From the NCBI RefSeq assembly GCF_003259375.1, contig NZ_QLLN01000001.1:287360-351359 (forward strand): a DNA stretch of 64,000 nucleotides, given 5' to 3'. Position 1 is the stretch's first letter. Every line of letters begins with the position of its first letter. Origin of the DNA: Arenibacter echinorum. Its GTDB lineage: Bacteria > Bacteroidota > Bacteroidia > Flavobacteriales > Flavobacteriaceae. A program made the position numbers and the translations under genes. Below are positions 37,127 to 47,915 of this stretch, piece by piece. Under the pieces are notes generated by a model. That model was not told the origin of the DNA and searched no databases. It saw nothing but the letters and a program-made list of their open reading frames with translations.

Positions 37127-37556
37127 TTTTAATATAGTAAATGTATTTTAATCATCATTTTCATTATTAATTCCTTTTAGGTCGGCGCTAATTTGTTCCA
37201 AGTTTCGAAGGTTTTCTTAAAATGGCCCAATTTTGAAATTCTGCTTAAAATTACCTAATATTCTATATAAAAGTCCTAATTATTCTTCTGCCAGATGTTA
37301 GGGTATTTCTTGAATTTGCGATAAAAGTAGGGGAAAACAAAAATTAATGATGCTTTAAAACGTAAGTATTTACTTACACTCATCGTTGAAACGCAAAAAA
37401 TTATCGTTAAAAGGATTTTTGGCACCCGTACGTTAATCGATAATATTTTGCACTTCATCCGAAATTTTTCCGCTCAACGAGAAACAGTGCTTTTAAACGA
37501 ATCGAAACCTGGATAAATACACTTGCCCGAGTTATATATATAACAAAACGCAAGTC
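37127..37556 (+). promoter_or_regulatory. Upstream region and conserved 127-nt leader of secreted peptide gene 1
   Basis: The proximal part, 37430-37556, is a leader shared without indels with copies at 41331-41457 and 46062-46188. I count 12 differences between this leader and the one at 41331. It ends in GTTATATATATAAC (37531-37544), a perfect 14-base palindrome 12 bases before the ATG. TTTTTG at about 37415-37421 and ATATTTTGC near 37443-37451, 21 bases apart, could be the -33 and -7 boxes, giving a leader of roughly 100 nt. Upstream, ATCGTT boxes at 37382 and 37403 and a TAAGTATTTACTTA inverted repeat are partly shared with copy 2. I see nothing in 37127-37350. A 60-residue minus-strand ORF in this region is a chance frame. 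Confidence 0.7.
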
Positions 37557-37796
37557 ATGAAAACCATATTAACTTTAATCTTTGTTCTTTTTATCGGAAT
37601 GGCCGCCCAAGCTCAAAATGGTGCTGCTGAGGTTAAAGTTGAAACTGTTACCATGAGTATTGTTGCTGCTACTGCCAAACAAGACGTAGCCGTTAAAAAT
37701 GAAAATTCTGTTGCCCGTTTGTACATGTTCAAAAATTCCAAGGTAACTAAAGAATTGTCTTTCTCTACTAAATTGAACAAAGCTAAATTGGCTTAA
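37557..37796 (+). CDS. Small secreted peptide, copy 1 of 3
   Basis: This 79-residue peptide has a signal peptide (MKTILTLIFVLFIGMAAQAQ, cleavage after AQA or AQ) and a mature chain of about 60 residues that ends in a basic region (KNSKVTKELSFSTKLNKAKLA). I recognise no family or motif. Residues 20-30 and 50-79 are nearly the same in copies 41458 and 46189. I count 9 and 10 differences over 79 residues, most of them conservative. The mature part has no Cys, so no disulfide can form. Unlike copies 2 and 3, it has no small ORF after it and converges directly on acr3. Confidence 0.8.
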   Translation: MKTILTLIFVLFIGMAAQAQNGAAEVKVETVTMSIVAATAKQDVAVKNENSVARLYMFKNSKVTKELSFSTKLNKAKLA

Positions 37797-37818
37797 GACC
37801 CATTTAAATCTTTAAGGC

Positions 37819-37866
37819 GTTACAACTTCTTGATTACAACTAATTTTACAAGAACTAGGTTGTGAC
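37819..37866. terminator. Long imperfect hairpin between peptide 1 and acr3
   Basis: GTTACAAC pairs with GTTGTGAC (one G-T), and inside it TTCTTG pairs with CAAGAA with a four-base bulge. The hairpin lies between convergent genes and its right arm overlaps the last codons of acr3. There is no clean T-tract, so its role as a terminator is uncertain. Confidence 0.4.
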
Positions 37867-38904
37867 TTTGGGATAATACTTTTTTCGTAATCCAAAGGAT
37901 ACGCGGACCAATAAAATTAAGGCAGGAACTTCCACCAAGGGACCAATAACTCCTGCGAATGCCTGTCCCGAATTTAATCCGAAGACAGCTATTGCCACGG
38001 CTATGGCCAATTCAAAATTGTTCCCGGCCGCTGTGAAAGCTACCGAGGCCGTTTTATCATAATCTGCACCCATGGCCTTGGTAAAGAAAAAACCAATGAT
38101 AAACATCAGGGTAAAATAGATCAGTAAAGGAACGGCTATGATAAGAACGTCCATGGGTATCTCAACAATCATTTCACCTTTTAAGGAAAACATGACCACT
38201 ATGGTAAACAGTAGGGCTATCAAAGTCATTGGGGATATAGTTGGAATAAATGTTTTGGAGTACCACTCCTCACCTTTCAATTTAACCAAAATCAATCTAC
38301 TTAAAAAACCCAGTGCAAACGGAATTCCTAAATAAATTGCTACGCTTTCGGCTATGGTTGCTATAGAAATATCTACTATTGCTCCTTCAAATCCAAAATA
38401 GGGCGGAAGTACGGTAATAAAGATCCAGGCATAAAAACTGTAGGCAAATACTTGAAAAATACTATTTAGGGCAACCAAACCGGCACCATATTCGCTACTT
38501 CCTTCGGCCAGATCGTTCCAAACGAGTACCATGGCAATGCAACGCGCCAAGCCAATAAGTATGAGTCCAACCATATATTCGGGATAATCCCTTAAGAAAG
38601 TAATGGCTAGCGCAAACATCAAAATTGGTCCAACGATCCAATTGAGGATTAAGGAAATGGATAAAATCCTGGTATTTTTAAAAACCTTGGGCAAAAGGGA
38701 GTAATCTACCTTGGCCAAGGGTGGATACATCATTAGGATAAGTCCAATGGCAATAGGGATATTGGTTGCTCCGCTACTAAAACTATTAATGATTTTAGGA
38801 AAGCTAGGTACAAAATAGCCCATGCCTACTCCCAAAGCCATTGCCAAAAAAATCCATAAGGTAAGATAGCTGTCCAGAAAGCTCAATTTTTTGTTCGAGG
38901 CCAT
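37855..38904 (-). CDS. acr3: ACR3-type arsenite efflux permease
   Basis: This 349-residue protein has ten predicted spans, and the conserved Acr3 segment [15 protein letters not shown] carries the essential Cys in span 4. It exports arsenite using the proton gradient. It is the last gene of the minus-strand order arsR (40092), DUF6428 (39571), phosphatase-like arsC (38908), acr3, with three bases between it and the arsC-like gene. Arsenate would be reduced and then expelled. Confidence 0.93.
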
Positions 38905-38907
38905 TAA

Positions 38908-39540
38908 TTATGATTTTATTTGGGCAAATATGTATAGTAACTCTGTTGCAATTTGAAGGCTTCTTTCCTGATACTTTTCTGCCTGTTGTGGGGTATTGTC
39001 AAACGCCTTTGGGTCCTCAAAAGTTATAGGAATACGCTTTTCGGCGCCGGCGATAAACGGACAACCCCCATCGGCCTGCGAACAGGTCATAACTGCCGCA
39101 AATTCCGATTTGGGATTAAAGTCATCATCCAACTTCTTTGAAAAACCGATTACAGGTGGTTCATTCTCGGCATATTTTATGCTGTAAATTGGATTTTTCC
39201 CTTCCGAAATGGTTTCTATTTGGAATCCAGTGTTTTTGAAGGTTTGTGCCACCATTGGGAATAAGGCCGTAGATTTCGTTCCACCCGAATAGCACTGTAC
39301 ATTCTGCACATTAAAATAGAAGGCCATTGTTTGCGCCCAGACTTGTGATAAGAGACTCCTTCTGGAGTTATGGGTACAAATAAAATTAATTCTTATGGGT
39401 TCCTGGGTATTTGTTTTGGACTGTATAAACTCAGCAAGGGGCTGTAAAATTTCTTTGCGCTCCTCACTTATTTTGTCAGTACTTAATGTGGAGATAACCT
39501 GCTCAATTTGGTCGAAGATCTTAGTTTTAACCGGCGTCAT
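38908..39540 (-). CDS. arsC: Low-molecular-weight phosphatase-type arsenate reductase
   Basis: This 210-residue protein has the phosphate-loop motif CTHNSRRS with Cys55 and a later MTCSQADGGCPF with further Cys residues that can relay electrons. This fits the protein-tyrosine-phosphatase-fold (thioredoxin-coupled) arsenate reductase group. An N-terminal extension of about 45 residues precedes the catalytic domain. It reduces arsenate to arsenite for export by Acr3. Confidence 0.85.
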   Translation of the reverse strand: MTPVKTKIFDQIEQVISTLSTDKISEERKEILQPLAEFIQSKTNTQEPIRINFICTHNSRRSLLSQVWAQTMAFYFNVQNVQCYSGGTKSTALFPMVAQTFKNTGFQIETISEGKNPIYSIKYAENEPPVIGFSKKLDDDFNPKSEFAAVMTCSQADGGCPFIAGAEKRIPITFEDPKAFDNTPQQAEKYQERSLQIATELLYIFAQIKS

Positions 39541-39570
39541 TGAATATAATTTATAGGATGGATAAAAGGT

Positions 39571-40044
39571 TTAACAGCATCCGGAATTAGGAGTACAACA
39601 GTTTGCCGAAGTCTCTTGCAATTGGGATAATTTTACTCTCGGTTTTTCAGCCGGAATCCCACAGTTCTCCTTCGCCAAACAATCGGTGTGTTTGGTGGCC
39701 AAAAGAAAGTTGGTACCGTCAAAGTCCAATCCAAATTTTTGAATGGTCTCTCCTTGGTATTCCACTTCAATTTCCAAATCCCCAATTTCCAATACCTTTT
39801 CCGATAGTTCAATGATGTGGACCAATTTCTCCGGATGAAGTCGGTGATCATAGTCGTTGGAATCCCATAGCTGAAAATTCACGACTTCCTCTTTCCTAAC
39901 CGTTCCGCCGCAGTCTATAAAGTTCTTGGTGATTTTACCCACTTCAGTTACGTGAAAATGACTTGGCACTAGTTTACCATTTGGCAATTGAAATGCAATG
40001 GTATCCAAATTTCCTAAAATTGTTTTTACCTCTGATAGTTTCAT
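39571..40044 (-). CDS. DUF6428-family ars-operon protein with Cys-rich tail
   Basis: This 157-residue protein is of the DUF6428 type found in Bacteroidota arsenic operons. The beta-rich body includes PSHFHVTEVGK and the tail has ANCCTPNSGCC, giving vicinal Cys pairs that could bind arsenite or copper. It has no known enzymatic activity. Its place between arsR and arsC supports a metalloid-binding role. The 47-base gap to arsR holds ATTGCGATGATGCGAT, which resembles the operator upstream of arsR. Confidence 0.75.
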   Translation of the reverse strand: MKLSEVKTILGNLDTIAFQLPNGKLVPSHFHVTEVGKITKNFIDCGGTVRKEEVVNFQLWDSNDYDHRLHPEKLVHIIELSEKVLEIGDLEIEVEYQGETIQKFGLDFDGTNFLLATKHTDCLAKENCGIPAEKPRVKLSQLQETSANCCTPNSGCC

Positions 40045-40058
40045 TTTGTTATTTGTTT

Positions 40059-40074
40059 ATTGCGATGATGCGAT
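40059..40074. promoter_or_regulatory. Possible second ArsR half-site pair inside the operon
   Basis: ATTGCGATGATGCGAT contains two direct GCGAT units like the half-sites of the operator upstream of arsR. It lies between arsR and the DUF6428 gene. Occupancy there would allow internal control of the operon, but no promoter is clear at this spot. Confidence 0.3.
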
Positions 40075-40091
40075 TAATAAATTTAAATTTT

Positions 40092-40424
40092 TTAGCAGCA
40101 ATCTCCCTGTGTGGAGATATCCTGATTTAAAAATTGCTTTAAGATTTCCTTCATTTCCAGCCATTTTTCGGTATTGATACAATAGCATACACTGGTCCCT
40201 TCCACACTACCTTTAATGAGTCCTAGGAGTTTCAATTCTTTTAGGTGCTGTGAAATGGTTGGTTGTGCCAATCCAATTTCGCTTACCAAATCACCACAAA
40301 CACAGGTGTTTATTTTAAATAGATGTTGTAAGATGGCCACCCTGGCCGGGTGACCAAAGACCTTGGCAAAACTGGCAATTTCATTTTGTTGATCCGAAAA
40401 TATTTCTGTTTTGGCTAAACCCAT
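40092..40424 (-). CDS. arsR: ArsR-family metalloid-sensing repressor
   Basis: This 110-residue winged helix-turn-helix repressor has the recognition helix region AQPTISQHLKELKLLG and a metalloid-binding pair Cys41-x-Cys43 (NTCVCGDL). It ends in DCC. It represses the operon until arsenite binds. Its promoter and operator are visible just upstream (40441-40475), so autoregulation is expected. Confidence 0.92.
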   Translation of the reverse strand: MGLAKTEIFSDQQNEIASFAKVFGHPARVAILQHLFKINTCVCGDLVSEIGLAQPTISQHLKELKLLGLIKGSVEGTSVCYCINTEKWLEMKEILKQFLNQDISTQGDCC

Positions 40425-40440
40425 TTTACTTTATTTGTAT

Positions 40441-40475
40441 ATCGCAATATTACGATGAATATTTGATTTGACAAA
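40441..40475 (-). promoter_or_regulatory. ars promoter with overlapping palindromic operator
   Basis: On the minus strand TTTG (40472-40475) is followed after exactly 19 bases by TAATATTG (40445-40452), a good fit to the flavobacterial promoter with one change. The palindrome ATCGCAATATTACGAT (40441-40456) covers the -7 box; its arms match except for one inner pair. A repressor bound there would block transcription, the usual ArsR arrangement. Confidence 0.72.
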
Positions 40476-40496
40476 CATTTTTGCATTTTTTCTATC

Positions 40497-41132
40497 TCAT
40501 TCTTTTTTTCGGCATATTAGGATGGTGTGCTTTTCTGATAGAGACCCGGTTTTTGGGTAATGTACATAGTACAGCTCTGGGTCTTCAAATTTATGGCTCG
40601 ACAGAATTTTTTTTATGGAGTCCAAATTGTGGTAATGGAAATATACTCTGTTTCCATTGGGGCCTACTTTGAAACCGGATTTGTTAATGTCTCCCTCCAC
40701 AAAACTTAAATAGAGAAATCCATTGTTTGAAAGCAACTTGTGGGAATCGGCAATTAATTGAACACAATTGGGGTAGGAGAGGTAGGGCATACAAAAACCA
40801 CCAACGATGCCATCGAATAAGGTGTTGAGTTCGCCGATCTGCCTACAATCCATTACCTTGAATTTAGCGGTCGGATTGTTCTTTTGGGCAAGTGCTATCA
40901 TGTTGGGCGCAATGTCGATTCCTAAAATGTTGAAATCGGGTCTTTGCGATAAAAGATATCTCGTGATGTTTCCCGGGCCACAGCCAATTTCTAATAATGA
41001 GGCATTTTTTTTTGTTATCGATCTACAAATAAGGTCATAGCTGTCATTGTACAAGTCCAGATCCATAAACCTGGCTTGATATAGGGCAGCCATTTTATTC
41101 CATGTTTCGAATGTTTCTTTATAACGATCCAA
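40497..41132 (-). CDS. Class I SAM-dependent methyltransferase
   Basis: This 211-residue methyltransferase has motif I LLEIGCGPGNITRYLL, the acidic LGIDIA after strand 2, and the DCRQIG region. It is not an ArsM by sequence, because the Cys residues expected of arsenite methyltransferases are not visible in the right places, even though it lies next to the ars operon. The substrate is unknown. It is on the same strand as arsR, which lies 72 bases downstream with its own promoter. Confidence 0.85.
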   Translation of the reverse strand: MDRYKETFETWNKMAALYQARFMDLDLYNDSYDLICRSITKKNASLLEIGCGPGNITRYLLSQRPDFNILGIDIAPNMIALAQKNNPTAKFKVMDCRQIGELNTLFDGIVGGFCMPYLSYPNCVQLIADSHKLLSNNGFLYLSFVEGDINKSGFKVGPNGNRVYFHYHNLDSIKKILSSHKFEDPELYYVHYPKTGSLSEKHTILICRKKE

Positions 41133-41457
41133 AGGTTTGTGTTATTACAAATTGATTGGTTAACAGAGATAAAGTTCGGCATAATCCATAAACTAAAACT
41201 TAAATATTTTGCTATTTTTTTGATTTCAGAATAGAAAATTAGAATTCATAGAGGCTATAAACGTCAGTAATTACTTAGGACAACCGATGAAATACAAATT
41301 TTAATCGTTGAAGTGTTTTTGAAACTAGTTACGTTTATCGACATTTTTTTGCACTTAATCCGTGATTTTTCCGCTCAACGAGAAACAGTGCTTTTCAGCG
41401 AATTGGAACCTGGATAAGTACACTTGCCCGAGTTATATATATAACAAAACGCAAGTC
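41133..41457 (+). promoter_or_regulatory. Upstream region and conserved 127-nt leader of secreted peptide gene 2
   Basis: The leader 41331-41457 matches copy 1 at 115 of 127 positions and copy 3 at 112 of 127 by my count, with no indels. The 14-base palindrome is at 41432-41445. GCACT near 41351 and AGTGC near 41397 could pair in RNA. A-C-C-G and ATCG boxes at 41283 and 41304 stand at the same 21-base spacing as in copy 1, and AAACGTCAGTAATTACTTA just upstream resembles copy 1. TTTTTG near 41316-41321 and TTTTTTTGC near 41344-41352 are possible -33 and -7 boxes. Confidence 0.7.
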
Positions 41458-41697
41458 ATGAAAGCCATTATAACTTTAATCTTTGTTCTTTTTATCGGAG
41501 TAGCTGCACAAGCTCAAAACGGTGCTGCAGAAGTTAAGGTTGAAACTGTTGCCATGAGTGTTGTTACTGCTACTGTAAAACAAGAGGTTGCCGTAAAAAA
41601 CGAAAACTCTGTTGCACGTTTGTACATGTTCAAAAATTCTAAGATAACCAAAGAATTGTCTTTCTCTACCAAATTGAACAAGGCTAAACTGGCTTAG
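41458..41697 (+). CDS. Small secreted peptide, copy 2 of 3
   Basis: This 79-residue peptide is a paralogue of the ones at 37557 and 46189, with the same signal peptide, no Cys in the mature chain and the same basic C-terminus ending KLNKAKLA. It differs from copy 1 at 9 positions and from copy 3 at 9. I start it at ATG 41458. A GTG-started extension would read through the conserved leader, which is non-coding in the other copies. A tiny membrane ORF follows 53 bases downstream. Confidence 0.8.
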   Translation: MKAIITLIFVLFIGVAAQAQNGAAEVKVETVAMSVVTATVKQEVAVKNENSVARLYMFKNSKITKELSFSTKLNKAKLA

Positions 41698-41750
41698 TAC
41701 TTGGATAAAATTAATAAGGTTGGCATCCCACCTTTAATCAAAAATAAATC

Positions 41751-41867
41751 ATGATAATAATTGCCCTTCTATCCTTCTTCTGTATCTGCCTCAATTATTT
41801 GGTTGTTTTTCCTAAAACCGAGAGGAAGATAGAACCTTTAAGGAGTAGGGTGGAAGAGGATAAATAG
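41751..41867 (+). CDS. Tiny single-span membrane ORF following peptide 2
   Basis: This is a 38-codon ORF from ATG 41751 to TAG 41867. It encodes a hydrophobic N-terminal span of about 20 residues (MIIIALLSFFCICLNYLVVF), then PKT and a charged tail. A similar ORF stands in the same place behind peptide 3 (46481-46600). Shared positions include the initial MI, ALL, the V-x-FPKT junction and the later PL. The matching position and pattern behind two paralogous genes are the evidence that it is real. Confidence 0.55.
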   Translation: MIIIALLSFFCICLNYLVVFPKTERKIEPLRSRVEEDK

Positions 41868-41912
41868 TCCGGGTATCTAGCTTTGGTTACCTTTAATTGT
41901 TCTTTATCCTAT

Positions 41913-42152
41913 CTAGTTATTATTTGGAAGGGCTTCAAATTCCTTTCTTTTGTTTTCAAACCAATTGGCCATTGCCCCCGGAGATTTCATAAGTTCCTGC
42001 ATTTTGGTCATGGCCTCTAGATGTTCTGCTTCGCCGGCTTGAAACATAGCCATACCATGCTTTTTGCTTTTTTCTGCCATTTCTTCAAAGGTTTCGGCCT
42101 TAAATTCCATATCACAGGCTCCTCCCAATTGCTTGCATGTCATTGTTTTCAT
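41913..42152 (-). CDS. DUF1059-family small protein
   Basis: This 79-residue protein begins MKTMTCKQLGGACDMEF, the Cys-containing start of DUF1059 proteins, followed by TFEEMAEKSKKHGMAMF. The family is common in bacteria and archaea. Function is not established, though the Cys pair suggests metal or redox chemistry. It converges on the tiny ORF at 41751. Confidence 0.88.
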   Translation of the reverse strand: MKTMTCKQLGGACDMEFKAETFEEMAEKSKKHGMAMFQAGEAEHLEAMTKMQELMKSPGAMANWFENKRKEFEALPNNN

Positions 42153-42315
42153 ATCGGAATATATTAGCTTTTTAATGTTGGTTTATCTTTTACACCGCAA
42201 AATCGGAAATTGATTTTAATAACCTTTAGGAATGATAATTATTTTGGGAGGAGCTTACAAGGTAATAAAATGGCCGCGAATTGCAGTGGGAAATACCGCC
42301 AAGTTATTCATGGTA

Positions 42316-43557
42316 TTAGACCGTTTTAAAAATTACCGTTCCGTTATGTCCACCAAAACCAAAGGTGTTGCTCATGGCTACATTTATTTTACCATCAATT
42401 GCATCCCCTAGAACAATAGGAAGTGAACTGGGAATCTCTGGATCAATATTGATTGTGTTGATGGTTGGGGGAATAATGTTGTTCTGAATTGCCTTAATGG
42501 CTAAAATAGCCTCAATAGCCCCAGCGGCTCCCATAAGATGCCCTGTCATAGATTTGGTGGCGCTAATTTTCAGGTTGTTAAATTTGTTGTTGAAAGTTTT
42601 TACCACAGCCTTCATCTCGCTGATATCGCCAACAGGAGTAGAAGTAGCGTGGGCGTTTAGATAGTTAATTTGATCTGGATTTAGATGGGCTTCTTCCATA
42701 GCCAATTGCATCGCTTTTATAGCACCTATGCCTTCAGGATGGGTGGCGGAAATATGGTAGGCATCATCCGTCATGGCGGCGCCCACTATCTCGGCATAAA
42801 TCTTTGCACCTCGCTTCTTGGCGTGTTCATATTCTTCTAGAATTAGGGCCCCGGCACCTTCTCCCATAACGAATCCATCCCTCTCAACATCGAATGGCCT
42901 GGATGCGTGTTGTGGATCATCATTTTGTTTAGATAAGGCTTTCATGGAGCCAAATCCGCCAATGGAGGCTTCAGTAATGGGAGCTTCGGACCCTCCGGTA
43001 ACCATAACTTTGGCCTTGTCTAACCGTATGTAATTGAAAGCATCCATTATAGCGGAATTGGAAGAGGCACATGCGGAAACTGCCGTATAATTTATTCCCA
43101 TCAATCCAAACTTCATGGCAATCATGCCTGAAGCCATATTCACCAACATCTTTGGAATAAAAAATGGATTGAAGCGCGGATTCATTCCCCCTTTGGTGAA
43201 ATTCTTTACCTCGTCCTCGAAGGTTTGCATGCCTCCCTGACCGCATCCCCAAATGACACCTATGTCAAAAGGGGATAAGGATTCCATGTCTATTCCACTA
43301 TCGGTAAAGGCTTCAGTAACCGAATAAAGGGCGTATTGTGTAAAGGGATCGCTTCTTTTAATTTCATTGCGATCCAAGTAACTTTCCGGAGTGAAATTCT
43401 TTATCTCGCTGGCGAAGGTTGTCTTGAAAAGGGATGGGTTGAATTTTGTGATTTTTGATGCCCCTGTTTTGCCTTTTATGGCACTTTCCCAAAATTCGTT
43501 TACCGAATTTCCAATGGGAGTCAAGGCTCCCAAGCCTGTTATGACGACTCTTTTCAT
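42316..43557 (-). CDS. fabF: FabF-like beta-ketoacyl-ACP synthase II, outside the pigment locus
   Basis: This 413-residue ketosynthase has Cys163 (VSACASSNS), a His in NAHATSTPVGD and a His in TGHLMGAAGAIE. All catalytic residues are present. It stands alone without ACP, ketoreductase or malonyl transferase neighbours, unlike the ketosynthases of the pigment cluster. It may be a second FabF for fatty-acid synthesis or a stress-induced paralogue. Confidence 0.9.
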   Translation of the reverse strand: MKRVVITGLGALTPIGNSVNEFWESAIKGKTGASKITKFNPSLFKTTFASEIKNFTPESYLDRNEIKRSDPFTQYALYSVTEAFTDSGIDMESLSPFDIGVIWGCGQGGMQTFEDEVKNFTKGGMNPRFNPFFIPKMLVNMASGMIAMKFGLMGINYTAVSACASSNSAIMDAFNYIRLDKAKVMVTGGSEAPITEASIGGFGSMKALSKQNDDPQHASRPFDVERDGFVMGEGAGALILEEYEHAKKRGAKIYAEIVGAAMTDDAYHISATHPEGIGAIKAMQLAMEEAHLNPDQINYLNAHATSTPVGDISEMKAVVKTFNNKFNNLKISATKSMTGHLMGAAGAIEAILAIKAIQNNIIPPTINTINIDPEIPSSLPIVLGDAIDGKINVAMSNTFGFGGHNGTVIFKTV

Positions 43558-43601
43558 ATTTTTAGTTTTATCACTTTGCCTATAATCGGAATTTACGATT
43601 C

Positions 43602-44246
43602 TTATTTTTCTAGTAGCTCCGTTAGTACTTCTTTAAAGACTTCAACTGGCTGGGCCCCGGTCAATGCACTTTTGTTATTGAACACCACAGTAGGTACCGA
43701 GGAAACACCAAGACTTTGCCAATATTTCTCCTTAGCTTGAACCTGGTAACGTACATCATCACTATCCAATCTAGCCATGGCCTCATCTACATTCAGGCCA
43801 ACGGCTTTTAATTCTTCAATTAAAATAGATCTGTCTGAAACATCTTTTCGCTCGCCAAAAAACGCGGTCATCAATCTCATATTCAGTTCGGTCTGTTTTC
43901 CGTATTCTTTGGCATAGTCCAATAATATATGTGCATCCTTGGTGTTGACCATCTTCATCTCGTCAAAGTAGTCAAATTTGAATCCGAGTTCTGCTCCAAA
44001 ATCGGCCATACGTTCCTGGGAAAGTTGTTGTTGTTCCAGGCTGGAACCATATTTTTCTGTAATATGTTCCTGTACATTTTGACCTTCCTTTGGCATATGT
44101 GGATTTAGTTGAAAGGGTTGCCATTCAATGTCTACCCTATCCTGTAATCCCAATTCAGAAATGGCTTGTTCCAAACGTTTGTAACCTATGGCGCACCATG
44201 GGCAAACCACATCTGAAATAATATCCAATTTAATTTTATCTGCCAT
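43602..44246 (-). CDS. DsbA-family oxidoreductase (FrnE-like)
   Basis: This 214-residue protein has a thioredoxin fold with an inserted helical domain and the CPWC active site at Cys15-Cys18 (VVCPWCAIGYKRLE). No signal peptide is present, so it is cytoplasmic, as FrnE-like enzymes are. It would catalyse disulfide exchange or bind a thiol substrate. It follows fabF by 44 bases on the same strand, but a 13-base palindrome in its upstream region suggests its own control. Confidence 0.88.
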   Translation of the reverse strand: MADKIKLDIISDVVCPWCAIGYKRLEQAISELGLQDRVDIEWQPFQLNPHMPKEGQNVQEHITEKYGSSLEQQQLSQERMADFGAELGFKFDYFDEMKMVNTKDAHILLDYAKEYGKQTELNMRLMTAFFGERKDVSDRSILIEELKAVGLNVDEAMARLDSDDVRYQVQAKEKYWQSLGVSSVPTVVFNNKSALTGAQPVEVFKEVLTELLEK

Positions 44247-44568
44247 AATAATGATCGTTTAATAATATACTCACTAAGTGAGATTTTAATGCTCTCAGCT
44301 TAATTTATACAGGTTTTGGACTTAAATTGCCTCGCTAATTTGAACAAGGGGCTGTACCTTGGTAAAATTTGGAAGATCTGCCAAGATCTTTGCTGCATTT
44401 GTCCCGAACGATTGTTCAAATGATTCCAAGATTCAAAAGATCAAAGTTAATGAATATGGGACGGGTTGTATAGAACCTTTTTCAAAATTGGTAGCGATTG
44501 GAACCAGACGGACGGTTAGAGATTGAACTCCCTAACTGTCCGATTCCATTCTTAGTACTTTTCCTTGA
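44247..44568. other. 322-base spacer with a palindrome and a hairpin
   Basis: CTCACTAAGTGAG at 44270-44282 is a perfect 13-base palindrome upstream of the DsbA-family gene and a candidate operator. CGGACGGTTAG and CTAACTGTCCG at 44509-44519 and 44532-44542 form an 11-base stem with one G-T pair, just past the end of the AhpD-like gene; there is no T-tract, so a terminator role is uncertain. Between them I see no ORF or RNA gene. Confidence 0.5.
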
Positions 44569-45132
44569 TTAAGATACTATTGTTTCGGGTTTCCAGGCAA
44601 ATTTTTGAAATGGCGCATCAACCGGAGTGTTGGCAATATGGTTGGAATAATTACTTATTACCTTTTGTGAAAGACCAAGGATGATTTCCAAAACTTGTCT
44701 TTGCCCGTAACCCACAGCATAGAATCTGTTCAATTCTTCTTCCGAAATATTTCCACGATTCCGAACAATGGATAGAGTGGTCTCGTGCAATACCTGTAGT
44801 TTTTCCGTGGGCATTGGGGTCCTATTCCTCAATGCTTCACTTAATTCTGGATCTACCTTCATCATATGGGCTATACCTGTATGTGCCGGAATACAATAGT
44901 GACATTCGTGCTCCACGTTTATAGTTTGCCACACTACGGTTAGTTCTTCGTTGTTAAAGGAAGAGTCTACAAATAATTGATGCAATGTCTGATACGCCTC
45001 TAGGATGCCGGGAGAACTGGCCAAAACCCCATGTAAACCGGGTATCATTCCAAATCCCTTAAGCGATTTTTGCAAAAAGGGCTTGCTTTCTTCAGGTGCG
45101 GATTCAATGTCGTGTACTTTTAATGTAGTCAT
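44569..45132 (-). CDS. Carboxymuconolactone-decarboxylase/AhpD-like protein
   Basis: This 187-residue helical protein has the AhpD-type redox motif HECHYCIPAHTGIAHM (CxxC followed by His). Such proteins act as peroxidase partners or alkylhydroperoxidase-like enzymes. It lies 78 bases downstream of the TetR gene on the same strand, with a palindromic operator between them (45174-45193), so it is probably the regulated target. Confidence 0.88.
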   Translation of the reverse strand: MTTLKVHDIESAPEESKPFLQKSLKGFGMIPGLHGVLASSPGILEAYQTLHQLFVDSSFNNEELTVVWQTINVEHECHYCIPAHTGIAHMMKVDPELSEALRNRTPMPTEKLQVLHETTLSIVRNRGNISEEELNRFYAVGYGQRQVLEIILGLSQKVISNYSNHIANTPVDAPFQKFAWKPETIVS

Positions 45133-45173
45133 AATTCAATTTTTAATTTATTGTTAATTCGATTTTGATTTAT

Positions 45174-45193
45174 TTCTAAGCATTTGCTTAGAA
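45174..45193. promoter_or_regulatory. TetR-type operator upstream of the AhpD-like gene
   Basis: TTCTAAGCA and TGCTTAGAA form a perfect 9-base inverted repeat around TT. A related sequence, CTAAGCAGTTGCTTTG, lies at 45795-45810 upstream of the tetR gene. Two similar sites flanking a TetR gene are typical of autoregulation plus control of a neighbour. Confidence 0.68.
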
Positions 45194-45210
45194 TTGGGAT
45201 AAAAAAAATG

Positions 45211-45774
45211 TTAAAGGTTGATAAATGCTGTTTCTATAAAATCTTCCAATTGTTCCCCACTTAAGATTTTGGAGGCCAGGGAAAGTCCCAACATAGATGT
45301 TGCCAAGTAATTTGCTTGTTTTTCAATAGTTTCTTGGGTTTTATTTTTGTCTTGTTTTAAGCTATTTGCAAACAGGGTTTTAATTTCATTAAAAAAACTC
45401 TTTAGTTCCGTCATTATAATTGGATCTCCGTGCTCTCCCAATTCATTTACGGTATTGGTAACCAAACATCCCTTTTTGCCATTATCATCCTTGGAGAATT
45501 CCAGGAAATCGTAAAAGTATTGTTTAATTCCAGCTACCCCGTTGTTGGATTTTTCTAAAATTTCCGTGATACGGTGTATCTTCTTTTTATAGGACTTAAT
45601 GCATTCCAAAAAAACCCCATTCTTACTTCCGAAACTTGAGTAAATAGAGAATTGGTTTATTCCCATTTCCTTTTCCAACATACGAACTGAGGTATTCTCA
45701 TACCCGTTGCGCCAGAACAGGCCCATGGCCTTTTCTATTACTTCCTCTTCGTTATATTGTTTGCTTCGCGCCAT
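45211..45774 (-). CDS. TetR-family transcriptional repressor
   Basis: This 187-residue protein has a TetR helix-turn-helix at about residues 8-55 (RNGYENTSVRMLEKEMGINQFSIYSSFGSK) and a ligand-binding C-terminal domain resembling AcrR/YxaF regulators. Its start has a site related to the 45174 operator about 20 bases upstream, overlapping TAGTTTTG, a -7 match. It probably represses itself and the AhpD-like gene. The ligand is unknown. Confidence 0.9.
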   Translation of the reverse strand: MARSKQYNEEEVIEKAMGLFWRNGYENTSVRMLEKEMGINQFSIYSSFGSKNGVFLECIKSYKKKIHRITEILEKSNNGVAGIKQYFYDFLEFSKDDNGKKGCLVTNTVNELGEHGDPIIMTELKSFFNEIKTLFANSLKQDKNKTQETIEKQANYLATSMLGLSLASKILSGEQLEDFIETAFINL

Positions 45775-46188
45775 AATTTAAATAAGGGACAAAACTAAGC
45801 AGTTGCTTTGAAATAAAAAAACATTTAACATTTTGTTTGATATTCCTTATGGATATAGTTGTTGGTAAAATCCGGGTTTTATTGATTTCAATTAAGAAAA
45901 TTACCATTTAACCAAGAATGATGGTTTTTTATCTTTCCTGTGTCTTTTTAATTTCTGGGGATATTAGTATTAAATACATGAAATGACAATTGCCCCCTAT
46001 TTGAGCTATTTAACATCGGTCAAATGCTTCATTTATCGCTAAAGTGAACTTAGTCCACTGGACGTTTATCGACAATATTCTGCACATTATCAGACTTTTT
46101 TCCACTGAACGAGTAACAGTGCTTTTCAGCGAATCGGAACCTGCATAAGTACACTTGCTCGAGTTATATATATAACAAAACGCAAGTC
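45775..46188 (+). promoter_or_regulatory. tetR operator, then upstream region and 127-nt leader of secreted peptide gene 3
   Basis: The operator-like AACTAAGCAGTTGCTTTGAA is at 45793-45812 (for tetR, minus strand). The leader 46062-46188 is the third copy, indel-free against the others, with the palindrome at 46163-46176. ATCG boxes at 46015 and 46035 lie 20 bases apart, against 21 in copies 1 and 2. The -33-like TTTTTG of copies 1 and 2 is absent here. I see nothing in 45840-46000. Confidence 0.65.
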
Positions 46189-46428
46189 ATGAAAGCCATT
46201 TTAACTTTAATCTTTGTTTTTTTTATCGGAGTAGCTGCACAGGCTCAAAACGGTGCTGCTGAGGTTAAGGTTGAAACTGTTACTATGAGTGTTGTTGCTG
46301 CCACAGCAAAACAAGAGGTTTCTGTAAAAAATGAAAACTCAGTTACACGTTTGTACATGAACAAAAATTCCAAGATTACGAAAGCATTGTCTTTTTCAAC
46401 TAAATTAAACAAAGCCAAATTGGCCTAA
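46189..46428 (+). CDS. Small secreted peptide, copy 3 of 3
   Basis: This 79-residue paralogue has the same signal peptide and C-terminus as copies 1 and 2. It differs from copy 1 at 10 positions, including Asn for Phe at 58 and Ala for Glu at 66 in the otherwise constant C-terminal region. That pattern, with an unchanged leader, suggests the leader is under stronger constraint than the mature peptide. The tiny membrane ORF follows 52 bases downstream. Confidence 0.8.
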   Translation: MKAILTLIFVFFIGVAAQAQNGAAEVKVETVTMSVVAATAKQEVSVKNENSVTRLYMNKNSKITKALSFSTKLNKAKLA

Positions 46429-46480: not shown

Positions 46481-46600
46481 ATGATATTATTTGCGCTTTT
46501 AGTCCTCATATTTCTTGGCCTTAGTCATATTGTTATTTTTCCTAAAACAAAGGGTATTCTGAGACCTTTGAAAGTGTCGGTAAAACAAGAAAAGGAATAA
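46481..46600 (+). CDS. Tiny single-span membrane ORF following peptide 3
   Basis: This is a 39-codon ORF from ATG 46481 to TAA 46600. A hydrophobic span of about 20 residues (MILFALLVLIFLGLSHIVIF) is followed by PKT, a short loop and a charged tail ending KQEKE. It resembles the ORF at 41751 in length, in the span-FPKT junction and in position relative to the peptide gene. No function is known. Confidence 0.55.
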   Translation: MILFALLVLIFLGLSHIVIFPKTKGILRPLKVSVKQEKE

Positions 46601-46706: not shown

Positions 46707-47915
46707 TTAGGTCTTAAAGGGATGTTGAATATCGGAAAATTTGACAATGTAGTTGGTGCCTTTTTTAGAGGAGTCCCTGTTTATGGATCCCTTTAATTGG
46801 CGGGACAGATTATGGATGAGTTTTAGTCCAAGCGATTTTGTGTTCTTGTGGCTGATTCCTTCGGGAAAGCCTTCGCCGTCATCACCAATATAGAGTATAT
46901 AATCTTTGCCATTCGATTTCACAAGTTCTATATGTATTTCCCCTTGGTCATTATCCTTAATACCGTATTTAAGGGCATTGGTAATTACTTCGTTGATCAA
47001 TAATCCTAGTGGGATGGCCGTGTCTATCCCGAGTTTAATATCCGGGATTATGATGTTCAGCTTAATATTGTTTTCGGTGCCTTTAAAGGAACGTATGAGA
47101 TAGTCACTTAATTCCTCCACATAGGACTTGTATTCAATTTTGGACAAATCGTGGCGCATATACAACATCTCATGTACCATGGCCATAGAAATTACCCGAT
47201 TTTGACTGCTTTTTATTAAAGTTTTTATTCTAGGCTCTTCAATGCTTCTGGATTGAAGACTAAGCAAGCTGGATACGGTTTGTAGATTATTCTTTACCCT
47301 ATGGTGAATTTCTTTTAGTAGCGTGTCTTTTTCCCTGATACGGGCCTCGTTTTCGTTTCTGATTTTATGTAATTCGTTATGTGCCTTAAGAAGGTTTTTT
47401 CCTATGACACCCCCCAAGAGATATACAGAGAAAAGAATACTAAAAAGGGCAAAAATATTTTTACTTTCTTCGGGGACCAAATTTTCCGTAAAATTAAATT
47501 CCGCTATACTCTGGGAGTAGATCAGAATAATAATCAGCAAGTTTAGGTTTAAATAAATACGGCCATATTCTTTGGTACTGATGTATCCCGCAAAAACCAC
47601 TAGGGCCAACACAAAAATAAAGGGACTGTTAATGCCACCACTGTATATGGTAACAATAACAGAGGATGCCAAGGCCATTATCGAGGTAATATTGTAAGTT
47701 AATCCCAGTAGTTGGTGCTTATGGAACAATAGGGTGTTGGCCAAATTTAAAGTGCCAAAAAGGATAAAAGTAGTGGGAATTATTTCAGTGATCTTTAGGA
47801 AAAATATACAGATAATACCAAAAAGAATGGAAAGGACAGAGGAAATATAGTTAACCCTTAACGTTAAACGGACTTTGTCCTTTAGTCGGTACTGATCCAG
47901 AGTGGGTATTTGCAT
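46707..47915 (-). CDS. HisKA_2-type sensor histidine kinase
   Basis: This 402-residue protein has about six N-terminal spans (residues 20-170), a short coiled coil, then the HisKA_2 phosphorylation site KEIHHRVKNNLQ (His204 or His205) and an HATPase domain with NEVITNALKYG and GDDGEGFPEG. No response regulator lies beside it, so its partner is elsewhere or it acts in a phosphorelay. The integral sensor part has no recognisable ligand domain. Confidence 0.9.
   Translation of the reverse strand: MQIPTLDQYRLKDKVRLTLRVNYISSVLSILFGIICIFFLKITEIIPTTFILFGTLNLANTLLFHKHQLLGLTYNITSIMALASSVIVTIYSGGINSPFIFVLALVVFAGYISTKEYGRIYLNLNLLIIILIYSQSIAEFNFTENLVPEESKNIFALFSILFSVYLLGGVIGKNLLKAHNELHKIRNENEARIREKDTLLKEIHHRVKNNLQTVSSLLSLQSRSIEEPRIKTLIKSSQNRVISMAMVHEMLYMRHDLSKIEYKSYVEELSDYLIRSFKGTENNIKLNIIIPDIKLGIDTAIPLGLLINEVITNALKYGIKDNDQGEIHIELVKSNGKDYILYIGDDGEGFPEGISHKNTKSLGLKLIHNLSRQLKGSINRDSSKKGTNYIVKFSDIQHPFKT

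Follow-up and report, generated by a model that had tools for sequence, protein, structure and literature searches.

The window considered here is the whole 64,000-nucleotide (nt) stretch of contig NZ_QLLN01000001.1 of Arenibacter echinorum (assembly GCF_003259375.1, positions 287,360 to 351,359, forward strand). It carries three genes of 79 codons for small exported peptides, and in front of each lies a conserved leader that reads best as an operator joined to a promoter. These genes, with starts at 37557, 41458 and 46189 and a mature chain free of cysteine (Cys), had been proposed in an earlier sequence-only reading; all three frames are open and the absence of Cys was confirmed. A fourth copy of 78 amino acids (aa), not included in that reading, is located on contig 6 (C6:252950-253183). 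In copy 1, residues 21-51 have a charge of -1 and the last 28 residues a charge of +6. In a Pfam scan of the three window peptides nothing exceeded the gathering cut-off (ExbD reached 16.6 bits for copy 3, the cut-off being 25.4). The NCBIfam scan of the same peptides gave no match above cut-off either, including none to a C-terminal sorting domain of the type IX secretion system (T9SS).

The leaders of the window copies are exactly 127 nt long from ACGTT to the ATG and align without insertions or deletions. They differ at 12 positions between copies 1 and 2, 15 between copies 2 and 3, as counted earlier, and 17 between copies 1 and 3, and the final 29 nt before the ATG are identical in all three. 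This is far above background, since the 100-nt stretch from -280 to -181, compared ungapped, differs at 52-70 positions among the same copies. In 28 Arenibacter-type copies the conserved block begins about 50 nt upstream of -127, near -180; identity is about 0.3-0.45 above -170 and climbs from there. The sequence-only reading held that the leader is conserved more strictly than the mature peptide. This is true only of raw nucleotide differences, which amount to 9.4-13.4% in the leader and 11.8-14.8% in pairwise comparisons of the coding sequence. Per amino-acid-changing site the peptide is the more conserved of the two (nonsynonymous divergence, dN, 0.054-0.065 versus 0.094-0.134 for the leader), and the claim was rejected. 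The ratio of dN to synonymous divergence (dN/dS) among the window copies is 0.10-0.11, thus the proteins are under purifying selection. The view of a gene family duplicated as modules of leader and gene, with the leader as a functional unit, is upheld by the co-occurrence of the two, as a leader match directly precedes 86 of 100 peptide matches. Nor are the frames broken in close relatives: those found in the 26 Arenibacter loci compared are all open, except two cut by the end of the locus.

When the information content of 120 leaders, a set with many related copies, is profiled, six boxes emerge at about -173, -152, -119, -98, -79 and -59 from the ATG. Its rows were anchored on the CG at boxes C and D, four leaders without this anchor being excluded, and the last two boxes are therefore overstated. 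The half-site core is approximately (G/C)nTTTAYCGA; two half-sites are reversed and lie upstream, four are forward, and the distance within pairs is about 20-21 nt. When the profile was compared with itself, the 25 best segment pairs all linked an upstream with a downstream box in inverted orientation, to which the near-palindromic TCGA contributes. The forward core recurs at exactly 21 nt in 17 of 35 leaders from about 33 genera, where 0.5 would be expected and 200 shuffles gave at most 4 at any distance. There are further peaks at spacings of 12 nt (9 of the 35) and 33 nt (10 of the 35), which we attribute to TTTGTC in the left part of box C. The reversed core is found at 20 nt in just four of the 35 leaders (0.3 expected).

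The sequence directly before the ATG is TAnnTTTA or TATATATA, frequently within an inverted repeat, at a position that fits a -7 box. In sigma-A promoters of Flavobacterium psychrophilum the -7 box reads TAnnTTTG and spans -12 to -5 relative to the start (PMC9723704). From the position of the presumed box a transcription start 12-15 nt before the ATG is predicted, so that the six boxes would be DNA sites. An inverted repeat at about -28 to -13 from the ATG has arms that vary between genera (GTTATATATATAAC, GCGTTTTATnnATAAAACGC, TTTACnATGTAAA). Its mean best arm is 5.6, compared with 4.3 in shuffled sequence (109 leaders), and it is perhaps the site of a second regulator. This repeat, present in many copies, and the strong conservation adjoining the ATG could also be expected of a transcribed regulatory RNA leader. 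Such a leader is very improbable: the presumed -7 box lies within the reach of the repeat, the operator boxes follow the helical pitch of DNA and comprise an inverted pair, and an Rfam scan of L001-L003 gave no match at E<=0.1.

Two models built from sequence were used to locate the operator. Model R1 covers boxes A-D and the promoter (39 leaders) and model R2 all six boxes (53 leaders); the window leaders contributed to each model. The R2 matches in the own genome are the four peptide leaders, all at E<=7.6e-21, and one further place at 4.5e-6; everything else, reverse-strand matches at the peptide leaders excepted, has E>=0.0086. The fifth place lies on contig 3 before a membrane open reading frame (ORF) of 29 aa (G000:C3:438221-438384; L109, L165, L170). 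This ORF and a 33-aa ORF of another genus (G080, L222) are alike by eye (xxNTxxxxxLxYxxCAxCFxWAxYVL), and each is situated behind a weaker copy of the operator. Across 198 genera, a peptide ORF follows within 60 nt of 86 of the 97 best R1 matches, and five of the other 11 are at contig ends. For this count peptide matches were taken down to E 5e-6 (100 matches) and leader matches down to 6e-5 (97 matches), weaker ones being excluded. The sequence-only reading had itself raised the possibility that the leader is a generic repeat found away from peptide genes. Boxes do occur elsewhere, as such a generic or mobile repeat would require, but as an apparently shared operator, mostly before surface-protein operons. 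With only five places at E<1e-5 in the own genome, four of them peptide leaders, and with most of the examined matches elsewhere at promoters of surface-protein operons, a repeat of this kind is scarcely credible.

The link to surface proteins comes from 20 places that were examined among the peptide-free R2 matches listed. At 15 of them a long exported ORF follows the operator, in three cases as the second ORF; its length is from 766 aa to more than 3000 aa, several being cut by the end of the stretch. PorP/SprF-like and OmpA-like ORFs come next in eight of the 15 cases; among the other seven, six are cut by a contig end, and at L241 the next gene is an unrelated one. When five of the long surface proteins were scanned whole, a T9SS type B tail scored above cut-off in four (L240, L241, L243 and L249, not L246), and all five PorP/SprF-like ORFs scanned matched TIGR03519. 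In four genera (G102, G086, G135 and G152) the operator precedes surface operons as well as peptide genes. The family, the operator and its sharing with surface operons are thus evident at the level of sequence. Further operator matches are listed in Table 1 with the features of the window.

Table 1. Features of the window and operator matches in other genomes; positions refer to the window or, for matches elsewhere, to genome and contig
Feature	Position	Strand	Remark
Peptide copy 1, exported, 79 aa	37557..37796	+	open 79-codon ORF; no Pfam family
Peptide copy 2, exported, 79 aa	41458..41697	+	open 79-codon ORF
Peptide copy 3, exported, 79 aa	46189..46428	+	open 79-codon ORF
Six-half-site operator, copy 1	37380..37507	+	R2 80.8 bits, E 2.5e-24 in window
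Six-half-site operator, copy 2	41283..41408	+	R2 86.7 bits, E 3.6e-26
Six-half-site operator, copy 3	46012..46139	+	R2 75.7 bits, E 9.3e-23
Palindrome GTTATATATATAAC over presumed -7 box, copy 1	37531..37544	+	inverted-repeat test
Palindrome over presumed -7 box, copy 2	41432..41445	+	inverted-repeat test
Palindrome over presumed -7 box, copy 3	46163..46176	+	inverted-repeat test
Tiny ORF with a single transmembrane (TM) helix, 38 aa, after copy 2	41751..41867	+	TM by hydrophobicity only
Tiny single-TM ORF, 39 aa, with FPKTKGILRPLKV, after copy 3	46481..46600	+	FPKTKGILRPLKV motif recurs in other genera
Membrane HisKA_2 histidine kinase	46707..47915	-	Pfam PF07568, E 1e-27; 58% identical to L043 kinase
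Unpaired R1 match	G102:C9		before PorP/SprF-OmpA operon
Unpaired R1 match	G138:C13		before OmpA-like gene
Unpaired R1 match	G117:C20		before glycine-rich surface protein; T9SS type C tail at 36.3 bits, under the cut-off of 40
Unpaired R1 match	G164:C15		before 329-aa lipoprotein-like ORF
Unpaired R1 match	G037:C102		before 147-aa ORF without signal (non-exported)
Unpaired R1 match	G102:C1:2230634		no clear gene after
R2 match, E 1.5e-8	G102:C1:2230572		no clear gene
Weaker R1 match	G086:C19		before PorP/SprF-OmpA
Weaker R1 match	G080:C1		before divergent peptide
Weaker R1 match	G182:C11		before peptide read from GTG
Weaker R1 match	G011:C25		before 34-aa membrane ORF
Weaker R1 match	G135:C1		before TetR-like ORF

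At the sequence level, the peptides form an uncharacterised new family of small proteins, predicted to be exported, in marine flavobacteria. Two protein searches gave 505 clusters and, with a Maribacter-like member as the query, 716 clusters, two sets that may overlap. Among the best 120 clusters of each search the names are mostly 'hypothetical protein', with a few automatic names that disagree with one another; the named sources include Arenibacter, Maribacter, Ulvibacterium, Muriicola, Eudoraea and Kriegella, and the closest named relatives are Arenibacter. With one genome per genus of Flavobacteriaceae, a member is present in 32 of 199 genera at E<=1e-9. At E<=1e-3 matches occur in 64 genera, of which 32 with a best E of 2e-5 or worse were left out, nearly all being N-terminal-only matches. 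In an order-wide sample of 296 genomes, 10 match at E<=1e-7, all within the same family; what share of that sample lies outside the family is not shown. No paper on the peptide family or the operator was found in literature searches, nor with four peptide motifs as text, within the part of the literature that these searches cover.

Members of the family often stand in arrays. In the genome G050 eight copies are open and a ninth contains two stops, and seven of the eight are arranged in two arrays with starts 690-740 nt apart; in the 199 genera, stops are present in two of the 100 counted peptide matches. The chain consists of a Sec-type signal (by eye), a variable middle and a conserved basic C-terminal end. 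A crude AxA-like pattern is found in 85 of 119 distinct proteins, whose median charge is -2 in the middle and +7 in the C-terminal end. The conserved end comprises 28 residues (VARLYMFKNSRxKKxLSFxTKxNKxKLA); the chain terminates in KLA in 87 and in KMA in 18 of the 119, and only two have Cys in the mature part.

The sequence-only reading suggested that tiny ORFs follow the peptide genes and may form a system with them. In the window this is correct for copies 2 and 3, and no tiny TM ORF of that kind was found after copy 1. Across the family the association is well above chance: an ORF of 28-60 aa with one strongly hydrophobic stretch starts at most 100 nt downstream of 47 of 121 distinct copies, compared with 5.8 in base-shuffled DNA. 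The partner ORF begins 1-2 nt past the peptide stop in most of the Flagellimonas and Croceitalea cases and 21-57 nt past it in Arenibacter, and 18 of the 47 have an LRPLKV-like tail. A tiny TM ORF behind an exported cationic peptide is the arrangement to be expected of a bacteriocin with a small membrane immunity protein. This interpretation is quite improbable, given the dN/dS of the window copies and the cross-genus conservation, which lack any arms-race variation, the Sec-type look of the signal, with no double-glycine leader of the class II bacteriocin kind seen by eye, and the 74 copies after which no TM ORF met the test.

As for the genomic neighbourhood, the peptide genes of Flagellimonas, Croceitalea, Cellulophaga and others are flanked on one side by an extracytoplasmic function (ECF)-type sigma gene and an M23 peptidase (Pfam). 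The opposite flank carries a HisKA_2 kinase (Pfam) and then SecA (by eye) where the stretch reaches that far. We infer that window copy 3 keeps the ancestral spot, because the window kinase resembles that of L043 (Table 1) and SecA stands beside this copy; the window SecA is 94% identical to a protein at L021. In A. palladensis and Arenibacter sp. P308M17 (L023, L034), contig-6-type copies occur near a methionine sulfoxide reductase-like gene (by eye), which marks the opposite end of the block. The window contains, between copies 1 and 2, an arsenic-type cluster (37855-40424) with an SBF-family transporter (Pfam) and arsenate-reductase-like and ArsR-like ORFs (by eye), and the peptide modules are therefore separated by unrelated genes.

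A kinase of the same HisKA_2 family is present at 18 of the 27 loci compared and thus neighbours the peptide genes in other genera too, any functional link to the peptide being putative. Together with the arrays of small exported peptides behind a LytTR-like operator, this could indicate a pheromone circuit, in which a membrane kinase, perhaps the neighbouring HisKA_2 protein, would sense the peptide and feed back through the operator, as in Gram-positive LytTR quorum systems. Such a circuit appears unlikely. The basic C-terminus is much alike across genera, unlike strain-specific pheromones; LytTR regulators are usually paired with LytS-type rather than HisKA_2 kinases; a Sec signal delivers to the periplasm only; and the kinase synteny includes the housekeeping gene SecA. 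A related proposal is that the peptide, relayed with the membrane micropeptide, controls a LytTR-type regulator of its own arrays and of T9SS adhesin operons. It is rather doubtful; if true, cells would coordinate attachment or gliding through a conserved peptide.

The explanation considered probable is that the peptide module is driven by a LytTR-type operator and belongs to a surface/adhesion regulon. The boxes would be occupied by a regulator, most likely a LytTR protein, that recognises tandem repeats at a distance of two helical turns and would switch on the exported peptide and, after many copies, a micropeptide with one membrane helix. A sigma-A-like -7 box of the Bacteroidota type near the ATG would leave about 12-15 nt transcribed ahead of the ORF. 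The exported chain would then act in or on the envelope, most likely via its cationic end. As a version of the operator heads surface-protein operons in other genera, such a regulon probably has the peptide among its outputs. Co-expression of peptide and adhesins is likely on the grounds of the shared operator, and for the identity of the regulator as a LytTR protein the balance is slightly favourable. The role in or on the envelope is more tentative, being plausible and somewhat short of probable; the constant cationic end and the purifying selection favour it over a bacteriocin or a strain-specific pheromone.

Several observations weigh against this explanation. The independent surface cases are few, since 12 of the 15 represent a single orthologous locus, next to a divergent gene that looks phosphatase-like by eye. 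The operators of the surface cases score lower (R2 E 5e-8 to 6e-5), and in most of them the match is confined to the first four boxes. At the other five of the 20 places there are a 33-aa membrane ORF resembling the contig-3 ORF, a 65-aa lipoprotein-like ORF, a CAP-like lipoprotein and, twice, no clear gene; among the matches in Table 1, those before the non-exported and the TetR-like ORFs and the R2 match without a clear gene are of the same kind. After 74 of the 121 copies no partner ORF passed the TM criterion. In the own genome the operator is carried only by the four peptides and the 29-aa membrane ORF; no match occurs within flanks of about 1.5 kb at its 11 PorP/SprF loci, and the surface link therefore applies to relatives, not to the own genome. 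None of its 19 LytTR genes has an operator match within flanks of about 1.5 kb; such an operator at the regulator's own gene is frequent, not defining. Regulators of the AraC type can bind 21-nt direct repeats as well.

The 12 orthologous adhesin loci (L220, L221, L223, L224, L225, L227, L228, L231, L233, L234, L236, L237) share a block in the 5' untranslated region (5' UTR) after the operator, AATGACCCCAAATC...ATATTAAT..TCCATT. It is followed by a hairpin whose stem letters vary between genera while pairing is kept, and then by CTTCCCTC in most. The hairpin is significant at P<0.05 against base shuffles in 10 of the 12 loci (mean stem 6.3 versus 3.2), an Rfam scan of five of them gave no match at E<=0.1, and it is possibly a new RNA element.

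A defined cis-element of 130 bp, with a sequence model, here connects the giant surface proteins of marine flavobacteria with a family of exported peptides that is uncharacterised. Control of adhesin genes in these genera is largely open, as far as a few literature searches of partial coverage show.

With regard to known systems, LytTR sites are described in PMC4847170 as a pair of repeats, direct or inverse, of 9-11 nt, with a gap of 11-13 nt, and E. coli YpdB binds GGCATTTCAT twice at yhjX (PMC4847170). The leader has the repeat size and spacing of that definition, as given there. Like the YpdB/yhjX operator in the same source, it has repeats of about 10 nt at a 21-nt pitch, and on its reverse strand box P1 often reads TGCATTTCAT, the YpdB core. 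Unlike that operator as presented in PMC4847170, it comprises six half-sites, a reversed pair and four forward, and it occurs in Bacteroidota. The -7 box TAnnTTTG of the F. psychrophilum sigma-A promoters is close to TAnnTTTA here, whereas the remFG-sprCDBF adhesin operon is assigned sigma-54 and SM5 promoters in the accessible text of PMC9723704, where no such operator was seen. Some operons of Flavobacteriaceae that encode a T9SS type B adhesin, PorP/SprF and OmpA carry a version of the operator, and this is what they have in common with the peptide genes; the peptide differs in being small, in lacking an NCBIfam T9SS sorting domain and in being encoded outside such operons in the loci seen. 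In Gram-positives, some bacteriocin and pheromone peptides are controlled by LytTR regulators. The present family differs from these in its Sec-type signal, in its conservation across genera and in that no linked LytTR regulator was found in the own genome, and it resembles them in having small exported peptide genes behind tandem-repeat operators.

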